A DNA stretch of 42,323 nt from Clostridiales bacterium. Lineage in GTDB: Bacteria; Bacillota; Clostridia; Christensenellales; DTU072. Shown here in pieces: positions 4,723-38,775 of the stretch. The notes beneath the pieces are model-generated. The model ran no database searches. It was not told the origin of the DNA and saw nothing but the letters and a program-made list of their open reading frames with translations. The translations under genes and the position numbers were made by a program. Location of the stretch: positions 1 to 42,323 of the forward strand of contig JAAZLE010000014.1 of assembly GCA_012799455.1 (NCBI GenBank), given 5' to 3'. The first letter of the stretch is position 1; each line of letters begins with the position of its first letter.

Positions 4723-4762
4723 CAAAAAGAGGGTTCTGTAGAAACACAACCCTCTTTTTTTA
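4723..4762. terminator. Rho-independent terminator (A/T-flanked, possibly bidirectional)
   Basis: aaaaagagggttctgtagaaacacaaccctctttttttat: GAGGGTT/AACCCTC stem with T-run, between convergent genes. Confidence 0.85.
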
Positions 4763-6203: not shown

Positions 6204-6247
6204 TAAAAAAACACGGCGAGTTTCGTTTGGGACGAACTTCGCCGTGG
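6204..6247 (-). terminator. Intrinsic terminator of the T-box leader
   Basis: CACGGCGAAGTTCGT..ACGAAACTCGCCGTG hairpin followed by T-run on the minus strand. Confidence 0.88.
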
Positions 6248-6470
6248 TGCCACCCAATTTCACAGGTTTCCCTGCCTTCATTGTAGGATACTATCATACC
6301 CCCTCTCTGTTACGGGAGAACCCGTCAATCACTACTTTACTTCAATTTCGCAACTGCCCTCAACAGTCCATTCATATACCCTCTGTCCCCTTGTCGCACC
6401 AACCCAAGTCTCTCTCATCACCGATAAAGTATACTACTACTCTGTCTCAACGGTTTTTTATTGTTAGACT
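6204..6470 (-). ncRNA. T-box leader RNA with UGG (Trp) specifier
   Basis: Minus strand: AGAGAG / GGTTGGTG distal-loop region, specifier context GAA-TGG-ACT (TGG at 6370-6368), antiterminator TGGGTGGCACCACGG (contains UGGNACC), then terminator GGCGAAGTTCGTCCCAAACGAAACTCGCCGTGTTTTTTT. The downstream gene is Trp-related. Confidence 0.93.
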
Positions 6471-30819: not shown

Positions 30820-31635
30820 CTAAATCAGATAACTTCTGTTTATCCTATCAGTTTTTCTAAACTCGTACAATATGTCTAATAAGTCCTTTGGCAAATAGCT
30901 TTCTGCTTTCTTTACGATTTGCTCATTGATTCCAGGGAATAAATAATATGCTTCGGCTATTGAGCCAGCAATTGCAGTAAGAGTATCAGCGTCTCCACCG
31001 ACAGAAATCGCGTTTTGAATGCAATCTATAAAGTTTGTTGATTCTAAAAATGCAACGATAGCAACTGGCACTGTTCCTTGACAGCTTTCATCAAACTTAT
31101 ACTTCGGTCTGATTTGATCCAAAGTAAAATCAAGATTATATTTGAGTTTTTTCGTTACAAACTCCTTTATCTCGCCTTTGCTTGCCCCTTTCCTGCAAAG
31201 AAAAATAATAGTTGAAACAGCCACTGCTCCTCTAATCCCTTCTGGATGATTATGTGATACCGCAGTTACCTTTTTAGCTAAATCAACTGCCTGCTCTATG
31301 CTGTTTGCAAACCATCCAGCAGCACTCACTCTCATTGCAGCCCCATTACCATAACTATTATATGGTTTAGGATTTTCTTCATGTAGCCAAGTAATAAAAT
31401 TTACACCATAATCTGATGGATATTTTCTGCCAAAATATTGCATCCAATAGATGGCTTTTTCTGACAAGTCCGAATAATCAGGTTTACTATCTAGTAAAGC
31501 CTTCGCAACAGCAATGGTCATAATTGTATCGTCTGTAAACCTAGTTCCTTCATCAAACCATTTAAAATCTTTGCTTTTGAAATTAGAATACTCGTACTTT
31601 GAACCCACAATATCGCCTATTATTGCTCCTATCAT
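30820..31635 (-). CDS. ADP-ribosylglycohydrolase (DraG-like) family protein
   Basis: MIGAIIGDIVGSKYE, FTDDTIMTIAVAKALLD, SVGGDADTLTAIAGSIAEAYY; preferred start 31635 with SD GAGGGGG. Confidence 0.9.
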   Translation of the reverse strand: MIGAIIGDIVGSKYEYSNFKSKDFKWFDEGTRFTDDTIMTIAVAKALLDSKPDYSDLSEKAIYWMQYFGRKYPSDYGVNFITWLHEENPKPYNSYGNGAAMRVSAAGWFANSIEQAVDLAKKVTAVSHNHPEGIRGAVAVSTIIFLCRKGASKGEIKEFVTKKLKYNLDFTLDQIRPKYKFDESCQGTVPVAIVAFLESTNFIDCIQNAISVGGDADTLTAIAGSIAEAYYLFPGINEQIVKKAESYLPKDLLDILYEFRKTDRINRSYLI

Positions 31636-31734
31636 ATAATCCCCCTCAGCACACTTATTTGACATAAAAAATAGCACTATAACAGTGCATTAAGTGACAT
31701 CTACAAGCGTCTTTTGACTTAAACTTCTTGATTT

Positions 31735-31763
31735 ATTATATATCGAAATGCTTATTTTGTCAA
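31735..31763 (-). promoter_or_regulatory. Perfect-consensus sigma-A-type promoter for the ADP-ribosylglycohydrolase gene
   Basis: Minus strand TTGACA - 17 nt (aaataagcatttcgata) - TATAAT. Confidence 0.85.
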
Positions 31764-31780: not shown

Positions 31781-31898
31781 ACCCGCCAGCCTCTTGTATA
31801 AAATAAAAAGACCCTGAAACCAAGGTCTTTTCAAATATGCTCAACACATTATGACATGTCGGCTCGGGCAACAATAATCTGACCCGCCAGATACAAGA
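31781..31898 (-). ncRNA. Orphan structured intergenic element containing a terminator-like hairpin; strand tentative
   Basis: 9-bp direct repeat ACCCGCCAG (31781-31789, 31882-31890), 8-bp inverted repeat TCTTGTAT/ATACAAGA (31792-31799, 31891-31898), local hairpin ATCTG-ACCCGC-CAGAT (31877-31892), terminator-like hairpin at 31805-31831. Confidence 0.5.
31804..31832. terminator. Terminator-like hairpin
   Basis: aaaaagaccctgaaaccaaggtcttttc: AAAAGACC/GGTCTTTT stem; minus strand continues ttttta. Confidence 0.7.
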
Positions 31899-32143
31899 AC
31901 TTAACATTACATTTGTAATATACCAAAATCTATACCTAAATTGCAATTTCCTAAATTAATTTATGATTATTTATTCGTATTCTTAGGTTTATTTGGTTTA
32001 TTAATTATGACATAAATCTTATTTTCACTAACACAAATTGTATTATTGATTAATTAATAGTGGCAACTATCACTGTTTCGGTATTGTTACATGCCTTTTA
32101 TTTTAGTATAATTTATGAAACAAAGAAGAATTCGGAGGAGATA

Positions 32144-33394
32144 ATGAAAATTAGTAAAGAAATTAAAGACCAAGCTGTGGACTACTCAATGAAGTGTATT
32201 ACCCATATTTGCGAGACCATTGGTCCAAGGGAATCAGGCATGCCAGCCGAGCTTGAGTGTCAAAAATATGTACAAAATGAATTAGAGAAAAACAATTGGG
32301 TTGATTCAACTGCAATCGAACCTTTCAAAATGGCAAGATATGGACTACTTTCTTTTGCCCCAGTCATAGGCTTTTTGATGGTAGTAGCCGCCCTTATTCA
32401 AGTTATAGCTCATGCCATAGGTGGTAACACCTTTTCTATAGTTGCAAATGTAATCTTTATTTTGTTTTCAGCGCTATCTCTTATAATTGCCTTTTTCCAG
32501 TTTTTACTTTATAAACAATTTTTAGACGTGTTTTTACCAAAACTAGAATCTCACAACCTAATTGCTAAAATTAATCCTACGGGAGAAATAAAGCGGCGTA
32601 TTGTAATAAGTGGGCATGCAGATTCTGCCTATGAATTCACCTTTATGAGAATACATCAAACTCTTATGGTTGTAGTTATAGCAATCAATATAGTTTTCTT
32701 ACTAATTGGCGTAGGAATATCCATATTTAACTTAATTGAAAGGCCAAACACTCCCCATCTTTGGGCCCTTATTTTATTTGCTATTATGGGTTCTTTTTTT
32801 GTTACTTTCTTCTTCCTGTTCAATTTTAAAGAAGTTGTTCCAGGAGCAAATGATAATCTAACAGGAGTTTTTTTAGCGGTATCAGTTGCTCGATGCATGA
32901 AAGAAGCAAACATACAATTAGAAAACACCGAGGTGCAAATTTTAATAACTGGTTCTGAAGAAGCAGGTCTTAGAGGTGCTAACGCATGGGCAAAAAAATA
33001 CAAGCCAATTTATGATGCCGAAGGAGTAGAAACTGTGTTTGTTGCTTTCGATACAATGCATGATTATGACTGGATGACAATATATGAAAGAGAAATGAGT
33101 GGTATAACTAAAAACTCTGCACGTGCAATAAAACTTATTGATAGAGCGGCAGAAGAAATGGGAATCAAATTGCCCCATGGCACTGTTCCCGCAGGCGCTT
33201 CGGATGCAGCTGCTGTTTCTATGAATAAAATGCATGCTGTTGCTATTGCCGCACAAAACCCACATGGCACTAGATATTACCATAATAGAAGAGATAATCA
33301 ACATGATTTAAAGCCTGAGACCTTTGCTTATGGCTTAGATATTGCACTAAAAACCATAGAGGTATTTGATAAAGAAGGACTTCCTGAAGCATAA
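32144..33394 (+). CDS. M28-family membrane-associated metallopeptidase
   Basis: Start 32144 with GGAGGAG SD; zinc-site motifs GHADSAYEF, GANDNLTG, GSEEAGLRGANAWA, HGTRYYHNRRDNQHDL; hydrophobic segments in the N-terminal half. Confidence 0.87.
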   Translation: MKISKEIKDQAVDYSMKCITHICETIGPRESGMPAELECQKYVQNELEKNNWVDSTAIEPFKMARYGLLSFAPVIGFLMVVAALIQVIAHAIGGNTFSIVANVIFILFSALSLIIAFFQFLLYKQFLDVFLPKLESHNLIAKINPTGEIKRRIVISGHADSAYEFTFMRIHQTLMVVVIAINIVFLLIGVGISIFNLIERPNTPHLWALILFAIMGSFFVTFFFLFNFKEVVPGANDNLTGVFLAVSVARCMKEANIQLENTEVQILITGSEEAGLRGANAWAKKYKPIYDAEGVETVFVAFDTMHDYDWMTIYEREMSGITKNSARAIKLIDRAAEEMGIKLPHGTVPAGASDAAAVSMNKMHAVAIAAQNPHGTRYYHNRRDNQHDLKPETFAYGLDIALKTIEVFDKEGLPEA

Positions 33395-33536: not shown

Positions 33537-33695
33537 ATGGATAAGTATTTATGTGAAGTATGTGGCTATGTTTATGATGAAGCGGATGGAGATCCAGATA
33601 ATGGCGTGGATGCAGGAACTGTTTGGGAAGATGTCCCTGAAGATTGGGTTTGCCCCATCTGCGGTGTAGGAAAAGAAGATTTTTCTAAAATGTAG
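33537..33695 (+). CDS. Rubredoxin (52 aa)
   Basis: Manual translation [60 protein letters not shown]. Not in the ORF track (too short). Confidence 0.96.
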
Positions 33696-38735: not shown

Positions 38736-38775
38736 AAAAAGCAATTACCCATTAATGGAGTAGTTGCTTTTTCTT
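38734..38775. terminator. Rho-independent terminator between convergent genes, possibly bidirectional
   Basis: aaaaaaagcaattacccattaatggagtagttgctttttctt. Confidence 0.8.

Follow-up and report, generated by a model that had tools for sequence, protein, structure and literature searches.

A terminator without a gene in a divergent intergenic gap of a Clostridiales genome: a candidate species-restricted small RNA

Introduction

The gap between the ADP-ribosylglycohydrolase gene and the M28-family peptidase gene of this Clostridiales contig is 505 bp long and lies between divergent genes, so that neither flanking gene terminates in it. A sequence-only reading had seen on its minus strand a dense array of RNA-like features, and had proposed a candidate small RNA or cis-regulatory RNA. 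The question raised by this locus is which of these features is real, and what a structured RNA would be doing in such a place. All of the letters quoted in that reading were found on the minus strand when both strands were read, and the element is, as had been claimed, enriched in GC relative to its surroundings (41% vs 30% for the whole gap). The features are collected in Table 1; the window referred to below is the whole 42,323 nt stretch of DNA that was analysed.

Table 1. Features of the intergenic gap and its flanks, with the evidence for each
Feature	Position	Strand	Evidence or remark
ADP-ribosylglycohydrolase gene (PF03747)	30820..31638	minus	Flanking gene; E 8.3e-35
Perfect consensus promoter TTGACA-17-TATAAT	31735..31763	minus	12/12 matches; reads into ADP-ribosylglycohydrolase gene
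CTGGCGGGT copy 2	31781..31789	minus	Repeat search; outside putative transcript
Closing-stem 3' arm ATACAAGA	31792..31799	minus	Past U-tract of terminator
Putative non-coding transcript, about 110 nt	31800..31910	minus	Predicted from promoter-like site and terminator
Intrinsic terminator hairpin UGAAAAGACCUUG-GUUU-CAGGGUCUUUUUA	31804..31833	minus	13-bp stem, -15.2 kcal/mol; recovered by two scans
Second hairpin GCCGACAUGU-CAUA-AUGUGUUGAGC	31839..31863	minus	In minimum-energy fold; stability no higher than shuffles
Candidate H-type pseudoknot	31865..31892	minus	Sequence; comparable motif in 0.8% of shuffles
CTGGCGGGT copy 1	31882..31890	minus	Repeat search
Closing-stem 5' arm TCTTGTAT	31891..31898	minus	8-bp inverted pair
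Weak promoter-like site TTGCAA-18-TATATT	31917..31946	minus	9/12 consensus matches; TG precedes -10
M28-family peptidase gene (PF04389)	32144..33394	plus	Flanking gene; E 3.4e-17

Results and Discussion

An orphan intrinsic terminator

The hairpin that had been described as terminator-like is a genuine intrinsic terminator, as judged by its stem energy, its U-tract and its recovery in two scans. UUUU follows directly after the hairpin at 31803-31800, the U-tract as a whole extending over about 31808-31800, and the terminator taken alone folds with a z of -5.0 relative to shuffles. The plus-strand version of the hairpin is weaker (-9.7) and has a poor U-tract. The terminator scan found eight strong terminators in the window, and the other seven span -12.6 to -19.1 kcal/mol, which includes the energy of this one; seven of the eight sit 2-45 nt past a same-strand stop codon, one of these seven belonging to a small rubredoxin gene. 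The terminator at 31833-31804 is the only one without the stop codon of a same-strand gene in the 45 nt before it, and the nearest same-strand gene of at least 100 aa is more than 4 kb upstream. The terminator and its orphan position are the solid feature of the element. Since a strong terminator is present without a gene, minus-strand transcription from within the gap, present or past, would have ended there, and an intrinsic terminator that is independent of any coding gene is as expected of an intergenic small RNA gene.

Several other features of this kind were seen in the window. The rubredoxin gene (33537-33695, plus strand) encodes 52 aa with two CxxC motifs and is lost from ORF lists that require at least 60 aa; its terminator begins 7 nt past the stop codon. 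Segments 4725-4758 and 38736-38772 are bidirectional terminators, each common to a convergent gene pair. A weak terminator-like hairpin (31674-31688, minus strand; -4.9 kcal/mol, with 8 T in the following 10 bases) is located in the leader of the ADP-ribosylglycohydrolase gene, just upstream of the ribosome-binding site.

Coding potential, known families and mobile elements

Stop-to-stop frames of 26 and 58 codons and an ATG frame of 42 codons run over the element. The codon usage of all three resembles that of wrong frames and falls below 99% of real gene pieces, in a test that is weak for so few codons; the neighbouring rubredoxin gene scores as a gene in the same test. No Pfam match above the cut-off was found for the frames, and the 42-aa frame gave weak protein matches without DNA similarity, so that a small protein gene was rejected. 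With the reservation that codon usage is a weak guide at such lengths, the absence of a protein-coding frame is also what an intergenic small RNA gene would show.

The statement that the element matches no known RNA family is borne out by an Rfam scan, in which nothing reached the gathering score and just chance matches to three unrelated families (E 3.7-8) were returned; a known family, such as might mark a cis-acting RNA, is thereby ruled out. The sole Rfam match in the window is a T-box leader (RF00230) at 6225-6459 on the minus strand, scoring 106.7 bits where the gathering score is 93. A repeat or mobile element was rejected because blastn finds a single copy in the organism's own genome, and a MITE-like repeat on the same grounds and from the lack of a flanking duplication. 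Phage and plasmid searches gave no matches, which removes an origin of either kind, and two exact patterns searched for in viral contigs were likewise without a match.

Promoters and a candidate small RNA

The weak promoter TTGCAA-18-TATATT that had been proposed upstream is present, and RNA from it would begin near 31910, but it is not distinctive in this AT-rich gap, where such sites are common (10 promoter-like sites in 901 bp vs 5.2 +/- 2.3 in shuffles). The perfect consensus promoter TTGACA-17-TATAAT just downstream of the element had been overlooked. Its position between the terminator and the ADP-ribosylglycohydrolase gene argues against a dependence of this gene on read-through.

The reading that we tentatively favour, at close to an even chance, is that the element is a stand-alone non-coding unit on the minus strand, most probably a small RNA of some 110 nt that is restricted to this species. 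It is consistent with the strength of the terminator in sequence, energy and U-tract, with its weaker form on the opposite strand, with its being the one orphan among eight, and with the divergent flanks, the non-coding frames and the consensus promoter of the next gene. Counting against it are the lack of conservation found in the genus, family and order, a 5' domain that is no stabler than its shuffles, and the weakness of the upstream promoter-like site. Of the original proposal, the small RNA is thus reasonable, given an orphan terminator in a divergent gap without coding frame or known family, whereas the fold drawn for it is unsupported.

From the promoter-like site and the terminator we infer the start site and the extent of such a transcript; any function that it might have is likewise an inference. 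Minus-strand transcription would start inside the divergent gap, either near 31910 or from a site at 32066-32037, and the RNA would end at the terminator, just short of the consensus promoter that reads into the ADP-ribosylglycohydrolase gene. Its function, if any, would most likely be base-pairing in trans through its unstructured 5' region together with the G-rich GCGGGU loop; as a by-product, the unit might keep stray transcripts from reaching the strong promoter downstream.

Conservation of the element and of its gene neighbourhood

No homologues of the element were found in 394 related genomes, and blastn against 198 relatives gave nothing but short terminator-like or chance pieces; no conservation was found at the genus, family or order level, the genus being represented by three genomes. 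Matches to a covariance model of the whole element (R1; E 0.02-0.9) were rejected, since the four that were aligned agree through their own terminators and in little else. Those to a model of the 5' domain (R2; E 0.03-0.06, counted per genome) occur in 5 of the 394 other genomes, no more than is expected by chance, and no terminator follows the best of them (L195). A relaxed pseudoknot pattern has four other matches in the 394 genomes, with GC-rich and unrelated linkers. We note that covariance models built on a single sequence would miss strongly diverged relatives and that, with one sequence only, missing covariation is not evidence against structure.

The element was not found upstream of the homologous ADP-ribosylglycohydrolase gene in genomes G001, G002 and G007, the G001 contigs stopping near both flanking genes so that its gap is only partly visible, nor was anything similar found by an alignment scan within 2 kb at 80 loci of more distant ADP-ribosylglycohydrolase homologues. 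G002, which is of the same genus, retains the order hisG-hisZ-ADP-ribosylglycohydrolase ... M28 but lacks the element at the syntenic locus, where a 6.7-kb block of other genes lies between the last two (L072, 3844-10226); from their translations the products of this block were named by eye as signal-peptidase-like, secreted repeat-like, glycoside-hydrolase-like and HEAT-type proteins. The gap between the ADP-ribosylglycohydrolase and M28 genes is thus a place where genes have been gained or lost within the genus.

This raises the alternative that a minus-strand gene formerly ended at the terminator and has since been deleted or has decayed, leaving at most an insulator, and the lack of a conserved signal in the remainder of the element would fit such a history. 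However, there is no recognizable gene remnant in the gap, and comparison of the gap with the G002 block at the DNA level and in six-frame protein translation gave chance pieces only, so that the gap as a decay product of that particular block was rejected. We regard a leftover of a lost gene as doubtful, and keep it in consideration because the gap gains or loses genes within the genus.

A second alternative is that the element is a riboswitch-like leader attenuator of the ADP-ribosylglycohydrolase gene, its 5' domain sensing a signal and controlling formation of the terminator. The element and this gene share a strand, with the element upstream; the GGGUC within repeat copy 1 is able to pair with GACCU in the 5' arm of the terminator (-7.5 kcal/mol), and repeat copy 2 pairs with GCCCGAGCC more strongly than copy 1 does (-15.8 vs -10.8). 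Nevertheless, the 13-bp terminator is much stronger than a 5-bp anti-terminator, a promoter belonging to the gene itself lies past the terminator, and no Rfam family is matched. Linkage to the same downstream gene, which a cis-acting RNA should retain, is seen neither in G001, G002 and G007 nor at the 80 other loci, and this absence likewise argues that the gene is independent of read-through; the conserved aptamer of a riboswitch has no counterpart here, where a single sequence without a homologue is available. An attenuator, the third reading that fits the observations beside the small RNA and the leftover terminator, therefore appears quite unlikely.

Repeats, proposed closing stem and candidate pseudoknot

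The fold as first drawn was one structured unit with TCTTGTAT/ATACAAGA as its closing stem, a pseudoknot inside and a second repeat copy outside that stem. Its letters are all present, and the copies of the 9-bp direct repeat are indeed 101 bp apart, with coordinates that agree (31781-31789/31882-31890). What had been missed is that AUACAAGA (31799-31792) and the second CTGGCGGGT (31789-31781) are both 3' of the terminator U-tract. RNA that ends at the terminator would for this reason contain neither, and the 3' arm and second repeat could act solely in read-through RNA.

Chance frequencies were obtained from dinucleotide-preserving shuffles of the 135-nt element and from real 135-nt pieces of similar GC; as the features tested were picked post hoc from the sequence, these frequencies should be taken as leads rather than as proof. 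Repeats of 9 bp are present in 3.4% of the shuffles and 6.8% of the real pieces, 8-bp inverted repeats in 5.5% and 11.8%, and H-type pseudoknots comparable to the candidate in 0.8% of each, with the 9-bp and 8-bp repeats occurring jointly in 0.15% of the shuffles. When the whole 505-bp gap is shuffled the 9-bp repeat is found in 70% and the 8-bp inverted repeat in 98% of cases, so that both are expected.

The two ACCCGCCAG copies might alternatively be binding sites of a regulator of the divergent promoters, with RNA folding incidental. This 9-mer is found only four times in the 1.62-Mb genome, two of them in the element, with 0.04 expected in the window; but when all 9-mers are counted, as above, 3.4% of the shuffles contain a repeat of this length, the remaining two genomic copies occur singly, and the sequence is neither palindromic nor conserved. 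We consider regulator sites very improbable.

The candidate pseudoknot would have a first stem AUCUG/CAGAU (31892-31888/31881-31877) of -3.4 kcal/mol and a second, CGGGU/GCCCG (31886-31882/31869-31865), of -6.1 kcal/mol, each evaluated singly, as the fold program does not score pseudoknots. Its loops are 1, 0 and 7 nt long, lengths that are workable in H-type pseudoknots. The 141-nt fold has a lower energy than all of 200 shuffles (200/200; z -4.1), which together with the rarity of the pseudoknot (about 1% of shuffles) would favour a structured RNA of the kind drawn. This signal, however, comes from the terminator plus the closing stem, the latter spanning the terminator; the 5' domain alone has a z of -0.5, and there are no homologues on which covariation could be shown. 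Most of the drawn elements are thus near chance, and we give little credence to a pseudoknot RNA closed by this stem. A lineage-specific pseudoknot RNA in which two CUGGCGGGU copies flanking the terminator compete for GCCCGAGCC, forming a new self-competing switch ahead of the ADP-ribosylglycohydrolase gene, seems extremely improbable. There is a caution in this, in that a striking hand-drawn fold was reduced on testing to one ordinary terminator and a set of near-chance features.

Comparison with known systems

H-type pseudoknot riboswitches include the preQ1, SAM-II and fluoride classes, and on paper the element could likewise form a small pseudoknot ahead of its terminator, although, unlike these, it has no Rfam match at the gathering score. 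The terminator also resembles the 5' terminators and attenuators surveyed by Naville and Gautheret (PMC2965389) in lying upstream of a same-strand gene, but about 165 nt, with a consensus promoter among them, separate it from the start codon, and it has no conserved linkage to the gene, which is regarded there as the main clue, short of experiment, to a cis element (PMC2965389). In that survey 2.2% of predicted 5' terminators coincided with annotated small RNAs (PMC2965389).

The small RNA that we favour can be compared with the terminator-ended intergenic small RNAs of Firmicutes, for example those of Clostridium acetobutylicum, where predictions have in part been validated (PMC3879012). Species-specific small RNAs may escape methods that depend on conservation (PMC3879012), and the lack of homologues therefore does not exclude one here. 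The candidate differs from these RNAs in being predicted from sequence, with a weak promoter and no conservation, and would at most add one, as yet unproven, case to a common class. Should it be transcribed, the candidate would extend the species-restricted small RNAs of a little-studied clostridial lineage by one, and would be of interest chiefly for the light it casts on the origin of such RNAs at sites of gene turnover; with the Firmicutes examples (PMC3879012) it shares an intergenic position, short length, non-coding character, an intrinsic terminator and a promoter-like site upstream.
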